Virus record (IMG/VR): IMGVR_UViG_3300006921_000177
Span: 1-22,381 of that record
Strand: one strand, 5' to 3'
Length of the DNA: 22,381 nucleotides
Source of the DNA: a virus
A model generated the notes under the pieces. The model was not told where the DNA came from and ran no database searches. It worked only from the letters and a program-made list of their open reading frames with translations. Both the position numbers and the translations under genes were made by a program. Shown here one piece after another: positions 2,018-17,600 of this stretch. Within the stretch, counting starts at the first letter, position 1, and each line of letters starts with the position of its first letter.

Positions 2018-2947
2018 TTATGATACTAATACTGTATCAGCTCCAATACCTACTTGTACACCCCCTGAATATTTAGCAACTACACGAATATTGTCGCTCC
2101 CATCAAGAGTACTCATATCCATTAATCTGATACTAGTTTGGTCACCTAAAAGGTCAGTTCCAAAGAATAAATTAGATTTTTCTGCTGCTACTAAAACATC
2201 ATTAGACATTCCTGTACAAACGGCAATTTTTATTCCTTCAAATACAGCGTCATAATCTCTGTTCATAGAATAAGCGTTTACATATCCTAAAGTAGAAATA
2301 GCAGAAATGTATAATCTGTAAGATTTTGGACTCATATAGATATATAAATCTTCTTTTGTATATACTGCTGTAGGAATAGCTGCTGTACACGCTTGTAAGT
2401 TAGCGATAATATTAGTAGCGTCATAAGCAGTACCTGCACCCCCTGCGTTAGCTACATCATTAACTGTTGCATCTGCAACTAAAATTCCAACTGCTGCTGC
2501 CGAAGTTACAAAACCTGCCCATTCTCCTGCTGCATTTGGTGCTGCTGTATCTCCATTCCATATAGTGTTTTCTGTATCATCTGCAATAATATCAGCTAAA
2601 TAAGAAATTACATAGTCATCAAAACTTGCAGGTGGTGGTGCGCCTGCTCCTGCTCTCATTTGCATTGCTTCCCAAGAATCTAACAAGTCGCCCTTGCATA
2701 AATCTGTATTGATTTGTCTATTAGAAGGTGTAAGCACATTTTCTGTAAGAGCTAATGTACCTGCTCCTGTAAAATTACAAGACGCTGCCATTACCATACC
2801 TGTTGCATTCATCTTCTGTATATTACTTTTAAATTTGATATTTTCAATCATTGTCAAGTACTCCATAGAAGTAGCTTGTCTTAACGCTTGAGATACATAG
2901 AACCCTGCGCTTTTACCCGAATAGTTCGAATTTGTTGTTAAAGCCAT
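2018..2947 (-). CDS. Major capsid protein (309 aa)
   Basis: This is the main shell protein of the phage head. It starts MALTTNSNYSGKSAGFYVSQ, then has the N-terminal helix ALRQATSMEYLTMIENIKFK common in Bacteroidota phage capsid proteins, a central Ala/Gly-rich part, and a C-terminal beta part ending GGVQVGIGADTVLVS. Length (309 aa) fits an HK97-fold subunit without a delta domain, since a separate scaffold-like gene lies just upstream. The protease, scaffold, capsid gene order supports the call strongly. The start is set by a long A-rich tract (about 20 nt) before ATG GCT, expected for a highly expressed gene, and a hairpin follows the stop. Family assignment is from pattern and order, not from a search. 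Confidence 0.82.
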   Translation of the reverse strand: MALTTNSNYSGKSAGFYVSQALRQATSMEYLTMIENIKFKSNIQKMNATGMVMAASCNFTGAGTLALTENVLTPSNRQINTDLCKGDLLDSWEAMQMRAGAGAPPPASFDDYVISYLADIIADDTENTIWNGDTAAPNAAGEWAGFVTSAAAVGILVADATVNDVANAGGAGTAYDATNIIANLQACTAAIPTAVYTKEDLYIYMSPKSYRLYISAISTLGYVNAYSMNRDYDAVFEGIKIAVCTGMSNDVLVAAEKSNLFFGTDLLGDQTSIRLMDMSTLDGSDNIRVVAKYSGGVQVGIGADTVLVS

Positions 2948-2960
2948 TTTTTTTTATTTT

Positions 2961-3650
2961 TTAATTATTATATAAGTTATACAAGTATTTCTCTTGTTTT
3001 GTCATTCTTCTTAAATCTTGCTTAGATAGTGTTCTCTTTTCTGAGCTGAATTTATTTGTATTTAAAGATGTATCAGCAGGTTTCTTAGCTAATTCTTCTT
3101 TTAATTTTTCATTCTCAGCTTTTAATTCTTCTACTGAAAATTCAACTACTTCTGTAGTCTTAGTTGTTACTGTTCTAGGGTTTTCTGAAGGCTCAGTAGT
3201 TTCTACTTCAGTAGTTTCTTCTGACAATTCTTCTTCTCCTTCTGCACCTCCTTTCATTTCTTCAATAACACTTTCTAAATACTCAATTCTTTTTTCTAAT
3301 GCTTCATATTTAGATGTTTCTTCTTCTTCCTTTGCTTCTACTTCTTCAGCTGCTTCAACTACTTCTTCTTCAGCAGGAGCTTCTTCTTCTTCAACTACTT
3401 CAGCTTCACCAACTGTAGCAATAACACCTGCTTCTTCAACTACAAAAGTTACACCATCTTCTGTTTCATACTCACCGATTGGTAGTTCAATAGTCGTTCC
3501 GTCCTCAGTTAAAACTGAAATATCTACACCCTCAGCTAAAGCATCTGCTGTTGATACGATAATAGTTCCGTCCACTAATTTTGCTTGTACTTCAAACTTT
3601 ACTTCTGAAGAAAGTCCGAGTGCTTTTAAGATTTGTTCTTTTAGTTCCAT
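2961..3650 (-). CDS. Scaffold-like acidic coiled-coil protein (229 aa)
   Basis: Scaffold proteins guide capsid assembly and are removed by the prohead protease. This protein starts MELKEQILKALGLSSEVKFE, has a beta-rich part to about residue 80, then a long Glu/Ala-rich acidic stretch (residues about 80-115), a coiled coil (ALEKRIEYLESVIEEMKGG), a Thr/Glu linker, a second coiled coil (SVEELKAENEKLKEELAKK) and a basic tail (KRTLSKQDLRRMTKQEKYLYN). This layout, with a positive C-terminus that can bind the inside of the shell, is typical of scaffolds. It lies between protease and capsid genes. A promoter-like element sits 2 nt before its ATG, suggesting a leaderless message for scaffold and capsid. 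Confidence 0.72.
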   Translation of the reverse strand: MELKEQILKALGLSSEVKFEVQAKLVDGTIIVSTADALAEGVDISVLTEDGTTIELPIGEYETEDGVTFVVEEAGVIATVGEAEVVEEEEAPAEEEVVEAAEEVEAKEEEETSKYEALEKRIEYLESVIEEMKGGAEGEEELSEETTEVETTEPSENPRTVTTKTTEVVEFSVEELKAENEKLKEELAKKPADTSLNTNKFSSEKRTLSKQDLRRMTKQEKYLYNLYNN

Positions 3651-3652
3651 AG

Positions 3653-3682
3653 TATATAATAGATTAATATTTAGTTTGTTTG
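3653..3682 (-). promoter_or_regulatory. Bipartite promoter-like element, copy 2
   Basis: On the minus strand CAAACAAA (3675-3682) is followed after 11 nt by TCTATTATATA (3653-3663), only 2 nt before the ATG at 3650. The hexamer before CAAA (ATCAAA) is identical to copy 3. It would drive the scaffold and capsid genes. Confidence 0.65.
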
Positions 3683-3702
3683 ATTTTTAGATTTTATTAG
3701 GT

Positions 3703-4680
3703 TTACAGTATTTTCTTTAACATTTCATTCCAACCATTTAAAGCATTTTGATTTTCAAACATTTCATTAATCAATTTATTTGCTTCATTATATCCTTTCA
3801 CATCATTTACAGGTACTCCTAATTCTTTTGCTTGAACCTCTATTTTATTCAAGATTTTATCACTTTCTTTCTTCAATGTACCTGCTTGTCTTATAGCACC
3901 TCTAGTAATTCCTTCTGCATCAGAAATTACTTTTTTTACTTCTTTAAATTGAGTTTCTGCTTTTTCTCCCCATTTAAAACCGTCCTCTTGTAAGCCAATT
4001 ATTCTTTTAGCGTCACTAACTATATTTTTTAAATCATCAGCAACTCCCAACTCAACCTTCTCAGCCTTTAGTTCAGTTTTGTTTTCTCTTATTAGCTCGT
4101 TTAAAGCACTTAGTATTTGTTCTTGTGTTGGTTGTTTCTTGTTCATTTGTTCAAATTTATTAGTAAAGTAGCCTTCAATTGAAAGACCTTTCAAAGTTCC
4201 ATCTTTAATTTTGCTCCAAACCTCATCATTTTCAATTTTCATTTTCACGAACCAAGTGCCGATTGGCAAGTCAAAGCCGTATAAATTAGACTTATCTTGT
4301 TCACCTTCCTTAATCCAACTTTCAATTGTAAGAACTCCTGAAACTCTATCAGTATGTTGCTCAGTTGCTTTATGGTGATTGTTATGTTTTAAATATAAAT
4401 GTGAAGCCTTTTTTACAGTTTCTTTAGAAAAGTAAACATAATATTCACTATCAGTATTAGGGTCATATCGGAATATTTGTTTGTTAGGAATCAAAGCAGG
4501 AGAAATTAATTCTCTTTTTTCTTCATCTACCTTTGCAAAAGTTAAATTGTTCTTCTCTTTTGAGAAATAAACAAAGTCTTGTTCTATTGCAGGTGAAGTA
4601 ACTAAACTAATTGCGTCAATTGTTAATGCTTCGTTTTCATCACTTATTACTAGCTCTACGATACTTGTTTTCTTTTTCAT
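3703..4680 (-). CDS. Prohead serine protease, XkdF-like, with extra C-terminal domain (325 aa)
   Basis: This enzyme would cleave scaffold and capsid proteins during head maturation. Residues 1-172 match the XkdF-type phage protease pattern: SLVTSPAIEQDF near the start, YFSKETVKKASHLYLKHN followed by a His cluster (102-103 and 109), LPIGTWFVKMKIENDEVW, and GLSIEGYF with the candidate nucleophile Ser167. A flexible segment follows, and residues about 205-325 form a helical domain that resembles the neighbouring 127-aa protein. That domain may be an attached scaffold or targeting part. The ATG overlaps the stop of a 25-aa reading frame (ATGA), so translation is probably coupled to it. An AGGAGG lies 24 nt upstream, too far to serve as a ribosome site. 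Confidence 0.82.
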   Translation of the reverse strand: MKKKTSIVELVISDENEALTIDAISLVTSPAIEQDFVYFSKEKNNLTFAKVDEEKRELISPALIPNKQIFRYDPNTDSEYYVYFSKETVKKASHLYLKHNNHHKATEQHTDRVSGVLTIESWIKEGEQDKSNLYGFDLPIGTWFVKMKIENDEVWSKIKDGTLKGLSIEGYFTNKFEQMNKKQPTQEQILSALNELIRENKTELKAEKVELGVADDLKNIVSDAKRIIGLQEDGFKWGEKAETQFKEVKKVISDAEGITRGAIRQAGTLKKESDKILNKIEVQAKELGVPVNDVKGYNEANKLINEMFENQNALNGWNEMLKKIL

Positions 4681-5225: not shown

Positions 5226-6872
5226 TTAGATTGTTGCCCTTCTTCTAATATTTGCTAATTGGTCTTGACTGTTTGACATTTCATCTGTTACTACAAATGC
5301 TTTAACAGGCTCAGGTGCTTGACCACCTCCTAATTCAAATGCTCCTGACATCATCTCAGGTGCAGGTGCAGAAGCTCCCGCTGTAGGTACAGAGCCACCA
5401 CTTGGAGCAGAACCACCTCCTCCATCTGTTGCTAAAATAGCTTTTACATTAGCTAAACCTGAAGCAATAGCTGCTCCTGCTGCAACACCACCTAAAACAG
5501 GACCTACTACAGGAATACCTGCCATAGAAGCATAAGCTGCTGTAGCACCTTTATAAGTATCTATTGTAGCTTGTGTAACAGCCATAGCTTTACCTGCTGC
5601 TGTTTCTTCACCTAATATCTTGACCATATTTCCTGCCGTTTGGCTCATAATATCTAATTGAGCTTCAGATGACATTTTAGCCCAAGTTTCTTTTTCCTTT
5701 TCGTACTTCTTTTTAATTGCTGATTGGTCGCTTTCAAACTTTTCAGTAATAGCAGTTGTATCTTCACCTGCTTTACGAGCCATTTCTATTTTTAAGTCAT
5801 AAGCTGTTTGAAGTTCTGCTAATTCTAAAGCCAAACCCTCTAATCCACTTAACAACAATTCTCTTTTTGTTTCTCCTAATTCTTTTTCTAATGATACTTG
5901 ATTAGTAAGTTGCTCTGACTGAAATCCTGTTATTTGTGCTTCTACTGCTTTTCTTTCATTAAGAGCTTCTGTTAAAGCTATAAGGTTTTCTTGACTTTGG
6001 TTTTTATTAAATTCAACTTGTGCTGCATTAACTTGTATATCAACTAGTTTCTGCATTTCAACTCCCTGCTCTTTTAGGACTTCACCTAACTTTGTATTTG
6101 CTTCTATTCTTTCTGCAAAAGTTTTAGTTTCATCATCTCTTACCTGTCTAAGTTTTTCAGCTTGTCTATCGTATTCTTCAATCAACCCCTGAACTTGTAC
6201 TTTAGCTAATTCAGCTGCTTTATTTAATTCTATTGTTGCTGTTGCTGCTTCAATAGTTGTTGAAACATAATTTTTAATAGTTTTGGCAACTTCTTCGTAA
6301 GATTTATCTACACCTGTAAATACATCTACTGTTTCTTTTCCTGCTTCTTTTATAGTTTCAAAAGCTGCACTAAATTCTCCTTGTATTAACTGACCAAAAG
6401 ATTTAGCAACTAATCCCATAACCTCTAAGGCTTGATTAAATCTGTCTATAAATGCGTCTTTAATAGTATCTCCAAGCTCCCTAATTTTTTCAGCAGGATT
6501 CTCAAACATATCTTTAAACCAACCTGTAACTTTTCCTACATTTCCTGATAAGAAACTAAACAGGTCGTTAAATGCTATACTTAAAGATTCCATAGCAATA
6601 CCAAAAAGGTCTACTACCCTTTGATTTTTACCTAATACTTCTTGAAAAATCTCAAAAGCTTTATTTAGTAAAAACACAACCCCTGAAGCTTTAGCTAAAG
6701 CCTTAAACCCAACTGTTAATTTCTTAACTCCACCTGCTGATTTTTTACTTGCTTCACCTACACCTTCTGTTTCTTTTCCTAATTTCTTGGTGCTTTTTGT
6801 AGCTTTATCAATACCCTCTGAAACTTCTCCTATGTTTGATTTTATTTCTGCTTCTATTATTTCTTTGCTCAT
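5226..6872 (-). CDS. Tail tape measure protein (548 aa)
   Basis: Tape measure proteins set tail length and pass into the host envelope during DNA entry. The N-terminal 60 residues are Lys/Gly-rich (SKEIIEAEIKSNIGEV, GEASKKSAGGVKKL); a hydrophobic helix region follows (ASGVVFLLNKAFEIFQEVLG), then long alpha-helical and coiled-coil stretches (residues about 170-420). A Gly/Ala-rich hydrophobic segment typical of tape measures comes next (IPVVGPVLGGVAAGAAIASG), and a Pro/Gly/Ser-rich C-terminus ends in IRRRATI. At about 0.15 nm per residue, 548 residues predict a tail of roughly 80 nm, which fits a short siphovirus tail. It starts 1 nt after the fibre-like gene ends, so the two are co-transcribed. 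Confidence 0.82.
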   Translation of the reverse strand: MSKEIIEAEIKSNIGEVSEGIDKATKSTKKLGKETEGVGEASKKSAGGVKKLTVGFKALAKASGVVFLLNKAFEIFQEVLGKNQRVVDLFGIAMESLSIAFNDLFSFLSGNVGKVTGWFKDMFENPAEKIRELGDTIKDAFIDRFNQALEVMGLVAKSFGQLIQGEFSAAFETIKEAGKETVDVFTGVDKSYEEVAKTIKNYVSTTIEAATATIELNKAAELAKVQVQGLIEEYDRQAEKLRQVRDDETKTFAERIEANTKLGEVLKEQGVEMQKLVDIQVNAAQVEFNKNQSQENLIALTEALNERKAVEAQITGFQSEQLTNQVSLEKELGETKRELLLSGLEGLALELAELQTAYDLKIEMARKAGEDTTAITEKFESDQSAIKKKYEKEKETWAKMSSEAQLDIMSQTAGNMVKILGEETAAGKAMAVTQATIDTYKGATAAYASMAGIPVVGPVLGGVAAGAAIASGLANVKAILATDGGGGSAPSGGSVPTAGASAPAPEMMSGAFELGGGQAPEPVKAFVVTDEMSNSQDQLANIRRRATI

Positions 6873-13284: not shown

Positions 13285-13788
13285 TTAAACTACAGGTATT
13301 GTGCAAGTCTGAAAGTCATTCTCAGCTTCTACTGAAATTGAGAATACAAAACCTGTTACATCATTGTCAAATCGTTCTGTAAAAGGATTTAAAGTTTCTC
13401 CTACTGAACTGAAATAGATAGGTACATTAATATCGTCCATAGCTTGTGATTGGTATTTACTATGTCTTAACATTCCTATTATATCAACTGAATTACTAAG
13501 GCAATCTGACAATACTTCTTTTTCATTTGTTTTATTAACTGCTGTTGAAGTAGTCCAATCATCTTTTATACTTACTAAATCCATTATAAAGATCTGAAAG
13601 TTAAATGTTAAAGAACTTTCATTAGCTTGAACGCTTGTTGGATTGATGTGCATTAAAGGATATTTTGTATTCTTTTCCAAGTCTACATCATAAATATCGC
13701 CTGTTGTTACTGTTGCTATTTGTTGGTGCTTATCTCCTAGCTCTGCAATTACATCAATTACATTCTGATATGTTTTATTGTTAATCAT
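13285..13788 (-). CDS. Putative tail terminator / minor tail protein (167 aa)
   Basis: The protein starts MINNKTYQNVIDVIAELGDK and has alpha helix then beta strands (NTKYPLMHINPTSVQ, LTFNFQIFIMDLVSI), a helical part (LSDCLSNSVDIIGMLRHSKY) and a final beta strand region. This order resembles small tail-completion proteins, but the match is only by general shape. Its start overlaps by 8 nt the stop of the -1 frame extension at 13781-14032. This means the gene is coupled to the frameshift product, not to the frame-0 product, which ends 123 nt before. That supports translation of the extension. Function is inferred. Confidence 0.5.
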   Translation of the reverse strand: MINNKTYQNVIDVIAELGDKHQQIATVTTGDIYDVDLEKNTKYPLMHINPTSVQANESSLTFNFQIFIMDLVSIKDDWTTSTAVNKTNEKEVLSDCLSNSVDIIGMLRHSKYQSQAMDDINVPIYFSSVGETLNPFTERFDNDVTGFVFSISVEAENDFQTCTIPVV

Positions 13789-14032
13789 TTCTATTTACTG
13801 TTTTAGTATCGTTCAAATCTGTTTCATAACTCAACCAAGTTAAGCACTCATAAAGATTGAGTTTTGTTATTTTTTCTAAGTTTACTATTTCACCATTTGT
13901 TAGTCTATACATTACACCGAACCAAGACCATTTGTTTGCAAAGTCCTCGTCTGCGTTTCCTCCACTATCTTCTCCGTCTGTTCCATTAAATATGATGGCA
14001 TAGTCAGCAATAGTTTTTTCACGAAATGCCAA
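13781..14032 (-). CDS. -1 frameshift extension of the tail chaperone gene (GT-type, 83 codons)
   Basis: This open frame has no ATG at its start; its first codon in the open stretch is TTG (14032), directly at the slippery run. Entered by a -1 shift from the upstream gene it gives 174 + 83 = 257 residues, joined as VFF-LAFREKTIADYA. The sequence is protein-like (NKWSWFGVMYRLTNGEIVNL, LYECLTWLSYETDLND) and remains open to 13781, where it overlaps the next gene by 8 nt. Such G/GT pairs are known in lambda and many siphoviruses, where the longer form binds the tape measure and tube proteins. Here the role is inferred from arrangement. An independent start at the TTG is possible but less likely. 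Confidence 0.7.
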   Translation of the reverse strand: MAFREKTIADYAIIFNGTDGEDSGGNADEDFANKWSWFGVMYRLTNGEIVNLEKITKLNLYECLTWLSYETDLNDTKTVNRND

Positions 14033-14553
14033 AAAAAAACCAACGCACCCTGTACATCTTCTGCTTTCATCTGTTGCATTTCTCCTGCCCTAAGCCGTAA
14101 ATCTCCATCATACGCTTGTATTGAATAAAGTCCTTTTTTCTTTTCTACTACAGGTCTGTACAATATTGCCATTATTTCAGCTAAGTTATTTTCTATACCA
14201 TCTTTTATCATAACCTCTAAGTCAGCAAATTCACCTAAAGTAATATCTGATAAGTCAGGGTGGAAGCCATACTCTACACCATCAATTTCAATTAGGTTTT
14301 TAAGAGTTGTATCTGCCTTTGCTTGAAGCTCTGATATTTTACCCATAATACCAACTACATCACCTAATGAAAGTTGCGATACTAATTTTCTAGGAATATC
14401 TGACATTGAAGTTATAGTTTCAAAAGCTTCTTCACTTTTTGTTGTTTCTTCTAAAGCTATAAGTTCTGCCCACTTTTCAAGAGTTACATCTGACCAACTA
14501 TCAATCAAATTAAATGTTTCTTGCTTACCTTCCTTTTTTATTTTGACTTTCAT
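13912..14553 (-). CDS. Tail assembly chaperone-like protein, frame-0 product (213 aa)
   Basis: The protein starts MKVKIKKEGKQETFNLIDSW and is mostly helical (SDVTLEKWAELIALEE, LSDITLGEFADLEVMIKDGI). It has the segment LAEIMAILYRPVVEKKKGLY and the final helix ALVFFWHFVKKLLLTMPSYL. This composition fits the tail chaperone (G-like) proteins of siphoviruses; the LYRPV and ALVFFW parts are familiar from Bacteroidota phages. Codons 172-175 read GTT TTT TTT TGG, a run of nine T that permits a -1 slip. The frame-0 end extends 39 residues past the slip site, longer than usual. A promoter-like element lies 2 nt before the ATG, separating this tail block from the terminase genes. Confidence 0.65.
   Translation of the reverse strand: MKVKIKKEGKQETFNLIDSWSDVTLEKWAELIALEETTKSEEAFETITSMSDIPRKLVSQLSLGDVVGIMGKISELQAKADTTLKNLIEIDGVEYGFHPDLSDITLGEFADLEVMIKDGIENNLAEIMAILYRPVVEKKKGLYSIQAYDGDLRLRAGEMQQMKAEDVQGALVFFWHFVKKLLLTMPSYLMEQTEKIVEETQTRTLQTNGLGSV
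14031..14040 (-). other. Programmed -1 frameshift slippery site
   Basis: On the minus strand G GTT TTT TTT TGG contains nine T (14031-14039). After codon 174 a slip by one base gives TTG GCA TTT CGT and enters the 83-codon frame. The run permits full re-pairing of both tRNA in the -1 frame. I did not identify a stimulatory hairpin. Confidence 0.7.
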
Positions 14554-14555
14554 AC

Positions 14556-14585
14556 TATATAATAGAATTTTATTGTTTTTAGTTT
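14556..14585 (-). promoter_or_regulatory. Bipartite promoter-like element, copy 4
   Basis: On the minus strand AAACTAAA (14578-14585) is followed after 11 nt by TCTATTATATA (14556-14566), 2 nt before the ATG at 14553. The upstream box overlaps the terminase stop codon and is the least conserved of the five. Confidence 0.6.
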
Positions 14586-15795
14586 ACTGCACAAAATAAC
14601 GACCTGAGTTTGGATTGTCTAAGTGAAAAATTACATTGTAACGAACACCATCAATTGCGTGATTGTAATTATCTACATAAAGTTTAGAACCCTTATCAGC
14701 GTATATATAATTATTTAGCTCTTTGGCTATGTTTGTACTCTCAGGAGTTATAATTAATTCATAGTCTTGCATACGAGTTATCCCACTTTCAACAGTTCCT
14801 TTTTTTACAGGTTTTATGTTTACTCCTAAATGTTTAAGGTCTGCAATTAGTCTTGGTTCTGCTGAATCTGCTATGATAAGTTTATCACCTACTTTGTCTA
14901 ATATAATTTGAGCCAACTCATTTGACTTCAATCCGTTCTTATAGATATGTTCTTTTAAATATATCTTACGCTTCTTTTTATCAATAGCTACTTCTGTTAA
15001 GCTATCAGGGTCTACACTAAAACCAAAGTCCATTCCACAAGAAGTCTGTAGTCCATCAGGATTAAATTCACCTATACTCCAATTCTCAAAGACAACTCCT
15101 TCTGCTTTATCCAACCACCCTCCTAAGATTTTGTGCTGATACTTTTTAAAGTTCCTGTGCTTTATACTCTTAATACGCTCTAGGAAGCTCTGTGAGAGGT
15201 TTTCTATATTGTCTAGGTAGTTAGTATGTATATAGCATACATTGTCCTTAAAGCCATTAAAACCACCTTCTACACCTTTGTCCTCAAAAAACCTTTTATA
15301 TATCCAATGCTCTTTAGTTACAGGGTTTAATATTAATACTACTCTATTGTGTATATTCTTTTCCCTAATACTTAAATCAATTGTATCAAAGATATTCTCA
15401 TCAACTAATTCCTCAGCTTCATCTAATACCCAAGTGCTTATTCCCTGTAATGACTTTAGACTTGCTGTTTGATTTCCTGCTGAGGTTCTAATACCTCTAA
15501 ATAATATATCTGATTGATTGCTTGTATTTAATACTTCTGATTTATTAATACTAAATACATCATCAAATCCTAAAAGCCCTATCTTTTCCAAGAACTCAGG
15601 AATGATTGATAAGTGAGCTGAAGTCATAGTGTAACGAGTAAAGAGTATTCTTATCCCTTTAGTCATTGTAAGTAAAGTAAGAAAAACTGTAGCAGCAAAA
15701 GACTTTCCTGATCCTCTACCTCCTGTAATTATAAAGTACCTAGCGTCAGATGAAAATAATGGATTGTATTTCTTATTCAGTATCAGTTTCAACAA
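14584..15795 (-). CDS. terL: Terminase large subunit (403 aa)
   Basis: This ATPase-nuclease packages DNA into the prohead. The ATPase domain has Walker A GGRGSGKS (residues 25-32) and Walker B WVLDEAEE (Asp125, Glu126 as catalytic acid), with ILNPV near residue 157 as coupling motif. The nuclease domain shows three acidic positions: GMDFGFSVDPDS (Asp256), IIADSAEP (Asp310) and HAIDGVRY (Asp382). Length and pattern agree with the Terminase_3/XtmB type, about 400-430 aa. It overlaps the small subunit gene by 23 nt. All catalytic residues are present, so it appears intact. The next gene downstream is not a portal, which is unusual. Confidence 0.95.
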   Translation of the reverse strand: MLKLILNKKYNPLFSSDARYFIITGGRGSGKSFAATVFLTLLTMTKGIRILFTRYTMTSAHLSIIPEFLEKIGLLGFDDVFSINKSEVLNTSNQSDILFRGIRTSAGNQTASLKSLQGISTWVLDEAEELVDENIFDTIDLSIREKNIHNRVVLILNPVTKEHWIYKRFFEDKGVEGGFNGFKDNVCYIHTNYLDNIENLSQSFLERIKSIKHRNFKKYQHKILGGWLDKAEGVVFENWSIGEFNPDGLQTSCGMDFGFSVDPDSLTEVAIDKKKRKIYLKEHIYKNGLKSNELAQIILDKVGDKLIIADSAEPRLIADLKHLGVNIKPVKKGTVESGITRMQDYELIITPESTNIAKELNNYIYADKGSKLYVDNYNHAIDGVRYNVIFHLDNPNSGRYFVQ

Positions 15796-16126
15796 ATGTT
15801 ATAACAGGCATATTAATTGCTTTATCACCTGAAGTTATATCTACTCTGTTTGTTTCATTCCAACCTAACCTAGTCTTTGCAGCGTGTATTACAACTGATG
15901 GTACTTTATCCTTTACACATTCATAATATTTAGACTTAATAAAATCTTGTTGTATGTTTTCTATTTCTTCAACCTTAGCTGCAAATTCCTCATCTTCTTT
16001 TAGCCACTTATAAAAGTTTGTTCTGCTTAGGTCGGTTGCTTTTAAAGCAGTTGTTATTACTCCTAATGAACTTTCTAAAGCTTTGAGTAATCTCTCTTTG
16101 TTAATCTTTGTTCTATTCTGTTCCAT
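15773..16126 (-). CDS. terS: Terminase small subunit (117 aa)
   Basis: The small subunit recognises the packaging site on phage DNA and hands it to the large subunit. Residues about 8-42 form a helix-turn-helix (ERLLKALESSLGVITTALKA, TDLSRTNFYKWLKEDEEF). A helical oligomerisation part follows (VEEIENIQQDFIKSKYYECV), then the VIHAAKTRLGWNETN stretch seen in many small terminases, and a short beta tail (INMPVITFVETDTE) that may contact the large subunit. It overlaps both the methyltransferase (14 nt) and terL (23 nt), so it is a real member of this operon. Length is within the usual range for the family. Confidence 0.85.
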   Translation of the reverse strand: MEQNRTKINKERLLKALESSLGVITTALKATDLSRTNFYKWLKEDEEFAAKVEEIENIQQDFIKSKYYECVKDKVPSVVIHAAKTRLGWNETNRVDITSGDKAINMPVITFVETDTE

Positions 16127-17600
16127 TCTTTATTGCTTTTTGTCCTGTAAATTGTTCCCATCTTTCTATTATAACATCACAATACTTTTCGTCTAATTCC
16201 ATTCCGTAACATTTTCTTTTAAGTTTCTCTGCTGCTATTAGTGTTGAGCCACTTCCAAGAAAAAAATCTAAAATAATTTCATTTTTTTCACTACTACTTT
16301 TTATTACTCTTTCACATAAAGGAATTGGTTTTGGTGTAGCGTGTCCTCCCTCGTTTCCTTTTCTTATATGTCGGTCAAAGTGCCATACATTGTTAAAATT
16401 ATCGTGTGTATTATTAAAGTATGCTCTTGTTCCGTAAAAATCTTTTTTTAATTCTTCATATTCTTTTTTTAATTCTTCATATTCTTTTTTTAATCCTTCT
16501 GTATTTTTTGTTTTTAAATACTTTCTTAAATCATTATAGTTTTTTTCTGTTGGAAAAGTCCACTGTGATTTACTCCACCAATGATTTACAGTTCTTCCGT
16601 CTTTATACCCTAAAGCAGTAGCGATTTTTTTATCACTTTCATTAAATTTTTTTATTTCTTTTTCTAAATATGTTCTTATTGGTTCCCACTTGTCAAAATA
16701 ATTATCTGCATTATTATTAAAACCCTGAACTCCACACATAACAAATAAACATTTTTCGTCTGCTATTGCATAGCTTCTTGTGTTATCAGAATTTTGACCC
16801 TGACCGTTTCCCTTATCCCAAGTAATAAGATTTCTAAAAGTTGCTTTTTGTTCTTTTATATATGGTTTTAATATTTCTGAATAAATATCCATAAGAGGTT
16901 CATCTATACCCCAACAGTAAAAACTTCCGTTATCTTTTAAGTATGTAAATTGTAAAGTTATCCATTCTTTGTTAAAATTCAATAAGTCAGAATAATTAAG
17001 ATTATCATTTAACACTCCGTCATTTTCTTTCTTCATTCCATAAGGTGGGTCATTGTGTGCTAAGTCTGCTTTTTCCCCATTCATTAGTTTCTCTACATCA
17101 TCTGAGCTTGTGCTATCTCCACACATTATTCTATGCTCTCCTAGTTGCCAAATATCACCACGCTTTACTTTGCTTTCTTTTACTTCAGGTATTTCATCAT
17201 CTTCTATTAGTCCTGCTTCAGCTATTTTATCATCTTCATTTTCCCATACATCTAAACCCCATTCAGCAAGTTGTACGCTATCCCATTCATTAGCTAACAT
17301 ATCCCATTCCCATTCTCCAAACCCTACATTGTCTTTAACTATAAATTCTTTCTTTTGTTCTTCAGTAAGTCCTTCTGCTACTTCAATCCATACTTCTTTT
17401 AGTCCTGCATCTTTACTTGCCTTCAATCTCATATTGCCACCAAGCACCATCATATCTTCATCAACTACAATAGGTCTTAGCTTTAACATCTCAGGAAAAT
17501 CCTGTATTGACTTCACTAGCTTTTTAAATTTATCGTTTTTTATTATTCTAGGATTGTCAGGGTTTCCCTTTACTTTACTTATCTTAACTTGTTGTTTCAT
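16113..17600 (-). CDS. ParB/Srx-like domain fused to beta-class DNA methyltransferase (495 aa)
   Basis: This enzyme probably methylates an adenine or cytosine amino group in phage DNA to guard against host restriction. Residues 1-75 form a ParB/sulfiredoxin-like domain (GNPDNPRIIKNDKFKKLVKS, LGGNMRLKASKDAGLKEVWI). The methyltransferase has motif IV NDPPYG (about 183-188) and, after it, motif I FLGSGST (447-453) with the Glu of GMELDEKYC; the order IV before I is the beta class. Between them is a target-recognition region with a likely helix-turn-helix (ATALGYKDGRTVNHWWSKSQ) and a three-fold repeat of seven residues (KKEYEEL). No restriction enzyme gene lies nearby, so it is an orphan. A promoter-like element lies 15 nt before the ATG. 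Confidence 0.88.
   Translation of the reverse strand: MKQQVKISKVKGNPDNPRIIKNDKFKKLVKSIQDFPEMLKLRPIVVDEDMMVLGGNMRLKASKDAGLKEVWIEVAEGLTEEQKKEFIVKDNVGFGEWEWDMLANEWDSVQLAEWGLDVWENEDDKIAEAGLIEDDEIPEVKESKVKRGDIWQLGEHRIMCGDSTSSDDVEKLMNGEKADLAHNDPPYGMKKENDGVLNDNLNYSDLLNFNKEWITLQFTYLKDNGSFYCWGIDEPLMDIYSEILKPYIKEQKATFRNLITWDKGNGQGQNSDNTRSYAIADEKCLFVMCGVQGFNNNADNYFDKWEPIRTYLEKEIKKFNESDKKIATALGYKDGRTVNHWWSKSQWTFPTEKNYNDLRKYLKTKNTEGLKKEYEELKKEYEELKKDFYGTRAYFNNTHDNFNNVWHFDRHIRKGNEGGHATPKPIPLCERVIKSSSEKNEIILDFFLGSGSTLIAAEKLKRKCYGMELDEKYCDVIIERWEQFTGQKAIKNGTE
16441..16503 (-). repeat. Three tandem 21-bp units inside the methyltransferase gene
   Basis: The plus strand reads tctttttttaattcttcatat twice (16441-16461, 16462-16482), then a diverged third unit tctttttttaatccttctgta. 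The repeat keeps the frame and encodes KKEYEEL-type heptads in a coiled-coil linker of the target-recognition region. Confidence 0.85.

Follow-up and report, generated by a model that had tools for sequence, protein, structure and literature searches.

The question raised by this locus is whether a single gene directly behind the terminase gene yields two proteins by a change of reading frame at a run of T's and, if it does, what those two proteins are for. The reading that we favor, with a probability of about 0.82, is that recoding of the gene produces a G/GT-like pair of tail assembly chaperones. Comparative sequence shows that both frames are coding, that the junction lies at the T-run, and that the arrangement is conserved; from there we infer the tail-chaperone function, the G:GT ratio, and which machine slips.

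Gene layout in the window

The window, by which we mean the whole 22,381-base virus record that was analysed (position 1 is its first letter), carries the gene on its minus strand (Table 1). Frame-0 codons 172-175 read GTT TTT TTT TGG (V-F-F-W) in the context G GTT TTT TTT TGG, and rereading the minus strand places a run of nine T's (T9) at the codons where the initial annotation had located a slip sequence. Frame 0 continues for 39 residues past the slip and stops 123 nt before the ATG of the next gene, a distance that came out the same when recomputed. The -1 extension had been described as 83 codons long with no ATG of its own; it is indeed open over that length, with TTG as its first codon and no ATG near its start, and its stop falls 8 nt inside the next gene, as had been reported. 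Since the ATG of the next gene overlaps the stop of the -1 ORF, the next gene may be translated in coupling with GT and not with the frame-0 product; a short overlap or abutment at this point is found in 133 of the 144 loci described below. The position right after terL and far from the tape measure, also remarked on earlier, holds as well, with the tape-measure gene lying 6.9 kb off.

Table 1. Coordinates of the putatively recoded gene and of its neighbors in the window.
Feature	Position	Strand	Remarks
Frame-0 ORF (putative G-like chaperone)	14553..13912	minus	ATG start, 213 aa; counterpart in all relatives
T9 slip run	14039-14031	minus	9 or 10 T's in 144/144 loci
Slippery heptamer T TTT TTT, in-frame	14038-14032	minus
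-1 frame extension (putative T-like domain)	14032-13781	minus	83 codons and stop; no conserved start codon
Apparent dual-coded overlap (frame-0 tail and start of T-like domain)	13912..14030	minus	synonymous-rate suppression, open-frame simulation
Next gene	13788..13285	minus	ATG overlaps -1 ORF stop by 8 nt
terL (terminase large subunit)	14584..15795	minus	directly upstream of frame-0 ORF
Tape-measure protein	5226..6872	minus	phrog_3336, phrog_1538 and others, E about 1e-16

Two further observations concern the surroundings of these genes. A ParB-like domain fused to a DNA methyltransferase is encoded directly upstream of terS (16113-17600), and genes that probably encode the capsid and a head protease (2018-4680) come after the tape-measure gene (5226-6872) in the downstream direction, which is an unusual order for the virion module of a siphophage.

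Runs of eight or more T's are not rare in the AT-rich window (11 seen versus 15.8 expected), and the T-run by itself therefore proves nothing; it is conservation that decides.

Conservation of the T-run and of the -1 frame

Relatives were gathered by searching viral contigs with the frame-0 protein (274 relatives, 80 of them analysed) and again with its homologue from Nonlabens phage P12024S (63 more, mostly 25-33% identical to the query), while a scan of a genome collection added only three MAG contigs. The patterns used in the first search lay off the T-run, and one pattern of the second (FFYHLGND) covered it at the protein level. Kinship makes the relatives non-independent, an effect that was lessened by using clusters at 80% and 90% identity together with disjoint pairs. 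The phage family that they make up is marine and freshwater and is related to phages of Flavobacteriia. Three of the homologous phage contigs (L083, L084, and L085) sit in MAGs labelled Euryarchaeota and Pseudooceanicola, probably through binning errors.

At all 144 loci with enough sequence, which span identities of about 96% to about 25% and include Nonlabens phages P12024S and P12024L, a run of nine (139 loci) or ten (five loci) T's covers an in-frame T TTT TTT in the same position. In all relatives the -1 product begins with FFL.FR or a close variant and continues into a conserved W.W...L...L domain that is under purifying selection, which bears out the earlier impression that the extension is protein-like. 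As a control, we took the other predicted ORFs of at least 120 aa from the same contigs (805 ORFs, 214,016 codons) and derived expectations by shuffling synonymous codons within genes. Coding-strand runs of nine or more T's were absent from these ORFs (2.8 expected), and those of nine or more A's numbered 16 (58 expected). Because T9 or T10 is present in 144/144 relatives and runs of this length in none of the 805 other ORFs, the slip run is more than chance. The long T-run is kept at the slip site and avoided elsewhere in these contigs, and the site is neither a coincidence nor a sequencing artefact. The initial annotation had proposed to check its reading by the conservation of the T-run in relatives, which proved complete; the relatives that it had thought might contradict it, with no T-run yet two separate, well-started genes, were sought among the 144 loci and none was found.

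Three lines of evidence support a switch from frame 0 to the -1 frame at the T-run: this conservation at 144 loci, purifying selection on both frames, and the absence of a -1 start in many relatives. Recoding has been weighed against two readings that do without it. The -1 ORF could be a separate gene started from the TTG that is its first codon in the window, or from an internal ATG such as the one annotated for gene 39 of P12024S. More than half of the relatives, however, have TTA or another codon where the window has that TTG, and most of these lack an alternative start close by. Conservation of the -1 sequence sets in at the T-run already, before the ATG annotated in P12024S is reached, and two separate genes would have no need of a conserved T9; we consider this reading very unlikely. 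The other reading is that a homopolymer was miscounted in sequencing or assembly and that the true gene is a single ORF. Errors are frequent in homopolymers, and the AT-rich window has many T-runs, but conservation refutes error as a general explanation, since the same length class recurs in 144 records and in cultured genomes and the frame-0 tail is under purifying selection. We give error a negligible chance.

A direct homologue in cultured phages is the pair formed by genes 38 and 39 of Nonlabens phages P12024S and P12024L (JQ823122, JQ823123), which has the same T9, the same frames, and terL upstream. In P12024S the homologous recoded pair occupies JQ823122.1 23136-23830 (L082:8552-9246), the slip codons are CTT TTT TTT TAT, and the gene order matches that of the window, with the recoded gene after terL and away from the tape measure. 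The difference lies in the annotation: P12024S is given two hypothetical genes and no recoding, and gene 39, called from an internal ATG, misses the first part of the T domain. Separately, Flavobacterium phage 6H (L149:10352-10927) encodes a fold relative of the G protein with a T-like continuation out of frame. The T-like region of 6H has no clean T-run, only a short one; in this phage the shift may come about by another mechanism, or the sequence may contain an error.

Two selected reading frames after the slip

The length of the frame-0 product past the slip, 39 residues in the window, had been singled out as an oddity. Across the family this tail runs from 16 to 84 codons, depending on the lineage. 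In 48 disjoint pairs, the T-frame pS is 0.090 within the overlap versus 0.335 outside (about 3.7-fold lower), and the frame-0 pS is 0.053 in the overlap versus 0.288 upstream. All pS values for the overlap are simple counts of Nei-Gojobori type and do not model the overlapping frames in full. Amino-acid divergence in the same pairs is no greater in the overlap for the T frame (0.025 versus 0.041 outside) and was judged no greater for frame 0 (0.035 versus 0.033).

The synonymous drop in the T frame largely follows the frame-0 stop of each group. Where frame 0 ends 25 codons on, T-frame pS goes from 0.15 to 0.50 directly past the stop; in the 55-62 codon group it climbs from 0.06 to 0.44 as the stop is approached, and in the 79-84 codon group it nowhere exceeds 0.11. 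The window's own 39-codon group has values of 0.24 and 0.21 in bins 1 and 2 and 0.36 in bin 3, and the far end of the 39-codon tail is less well supported because the bin-3 intervals overlap those outside. For four members of the longest group, redrawing the T codons synonymously never left frame 0 open as long as observed (0/2000 trials); with the window sequence, about 9% of trials did. The window's tail alone is therefore only mildly unlikely by chance, and it is the family that carries the case. In the predicted structure of the G protein (mean pLDDT 83.5), the frame-0 tail forms the end of a helix (residues 164-207). The suppression of pS in the overlap across the family marks the long frame-0 tail as real coding sequence, conserved and under selection, and the DNA after the slip as encoding conserved protein simultaneously in two frames.

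Low pS is also seen just before the T-run, at G codons -13 to -3, in two of the four groups (0.15 and 0.08). An RNA fold signal was not found at these codons; the low values there possibly reflect an upstream stimulator.

Ribosome or RNA polymerase as the source of the shift

A ribosomal -1 slip and the insertion of one U by RNA polymerase predict an identical V-F-F-L protein. The initial annotation had spoken of a programmed -1 frameshift, of which the recoding is borne out by the 144/144 T-runs and the attribution to the ribosome needs qualification, as RNA polymerase may make the shift. We lean towards a ribosome that slips by -1 on T TTT TTT with no help from RNA structure. In 72 sequences no stimulatory structure was seen beside the slip site (mean fold z -0.17 to 0.11), and the mean fold z-score at -100..-40 from the site was -0.54. 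The alternative, to which we give an appreciable though less than even chance, is that RNA polymerase slips on the T9 template and adds one U, so that the T10 transcripts would be read straight through as GT.

The missing stimulatory structure speaks for the polymerase, and so do several features of the run itself. Its length is always 9 or 10 in the 144/144 loci, never 7 or 8, over several codon arrangements. GTT TTT TTC followed by TGG, TAC, or TAT would give the same residues in both frames and keep the Phe-Phe heptamer with seven T's, yet it is not used. The third codon is TTT in 33/33 clusters at 80% identity, whereas a control column of conserved Phe has 23 TTT versus 9 TTC; at 90% identity there are three TTC cases, exactly those in which CTT TTT TTT TTC makes T10. 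A run of at least nine A's or T's at the frame transition, kept in homologues, is what transcriptional slippage would call for, and it is found here. The avoidance of runs of nine or more in other genes of the contigs fits the threshold reported for many bacteria; in a large share of bacterial genomes, selection against A/T runs can be seen once they reach nine nucleotides (PMC1088944). The avoidance of TTC is nevertheless not decisive for the polymerase because the ribosome may just slip better on U UUU UUU than on U UUU UUC. Conserved Val/Leu/Ile and Trp/Tyr codons, moreover, dictate the outer T's in part, and the shift in tail chaperones of the lambda type is described as ribosomal (PMC5009743). 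Both machines may contribute. As a tentative proposal, RNA-polymerase slippage on T9, and not the ribosome, would set the chaperone ratio in this phage clade, and up to 84 post-slip codons would encode two selected proteins.

A probable pair of tail assembly chaperones

Under normal decoding the product would be a G-like protein of 213 residues with a long helix at its end. A minority of products would shift into the -1 frame at T9, reading V-F-F and then L-A-F-R.... The GT-like fusion made in this way would have 257 residues, with a helical T-like domain of 83 residues in place of the frame-0 tail. The two products are most likely the tail assembly chaperones of the phage, such that many G and few GT would coat the tape-measure protein and the T part would recruit tail-tube subunits.

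The architecture is that of G/GT, with a frame-0 ORF, an overlapping -1 ORF that lacks a start of its own, and a slippery site in the overlap that is conserved among homologues (144/144 loci). The homology searches gave weaker indications. The gene matches phrog_32199 in 48/48 members and the T domain matches phrog_38404, both of unknown function, whereas the 'tail protein' phrog_166 was matched by 3/48 members (best E 0.0014) and Pfam Phage_TAC_7 by 2/48 (best E 0.012). Two fold matches in BFVD are annotated as tail assembly chaperones, one with E 0.011 and probability 0.99 and the other with E 0.2 and probability 0.99 over 93 columns. The window protein had no significant chaperone match in Pfam, NCBIfam, or PDB sequences, and Foldseek on PDB returned no match with E<=0.001; a second look at PDB folds with VIA-align gave only Z<=3, mostly on long helices, scores that speak neither for nor against a known fold. 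The model of the T domain has low confidence (pLDDT 64), and its best BFVD matches are unnamed. Neither in the window nor in the relatives does the gene lie between the tail tube and the tape measure, the usual place of G/GT; at least 103 of the 132 loci that allow the comparison have terL immediately before the gene. The G/GT reading in the initial annotation stands for the recoded-pair architecture, and the gene is away from the usual siphovirus position by the tape measure, as that annotation had itself remarked. The architecture and the weak profile and fold hits suggest that the gene probably works like G/GT as a tail chaperone, and it is left outside any named chaperone family because the homology hits are weak and the usual gene position is not found.

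It is also possible, though unlikely, that the recoded pair is some other packaging or neck protein beside terL. The gene does have terL before it and probable neck or tail-completion genes behind it, and it lacks strong chaperone homology. A low-ratio -1 fusion is, however, a hallmark of tail chaperones (PMC5009743), the weak matches to phrog_166, Phage_TAC_7, and BFVD folds point the same way, and the window, which does have a tape-measure gene, contains no other candidate pair beside it among its ORFs.

Recoding in tail chaperones is a classic conserved frameshift, and here it would occur at an unusual gene position, on a nine-T run otherwise avoided in these phage contigs, with a post-slip region that appears dual-coded under selection. 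The analysis suggests a likely function for the unknown families phrog_32199 and phrog_38404 and points out a mis-annotated gene pair in the cultured phages P12024S and P12024L, which offer a cultured system for the question of ribosome versus RNA polymerase.

Comparison with known systems

The slip site of phage lambda is GGGAAAG, unlike the T9 of the present gene. The lambda gpG/gpGT system is likewise one gene with a frame-0 product and a -1 fusion whose T part has no start of its own (PMC5009743). In contrast to lambda, the gene described here has a conserved frame-0 tail that extends 16-84 codons beyond the slip, with dual coding, follows terL instead of the tail-tube gene, and has no detectable sequence homology to its lambda counterpart. 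The E/E+E' gene of phage P2 also undergoes a -1 shift at a T-rich heptamer, TTTTTTG, that lacks downstream RNA structure (PMC3091744), and the weak Phage_TAC_7 profile matches in two members of the present family add to the likeness. P2 has six T's, a protein E of 91 aa, and a gene between tail tube and tape measure, compared with nine T's, 213 aa, and another gene position here.

The run length of nine is shared with bacterial genes that undergo transcriptional slippage at 9A or 9T, such as those of IS elements and Thermus dnaX (PMC1088944). As with those genes, long runs are avoided elsewhere in the contigs and the shifted frame is conserved after the run. The present gene differs from them in that a ribosomal slip site, T TTT TTT, accompanies the run, and polymerase slippage is a candidate mechanism beside that of the ribosome.
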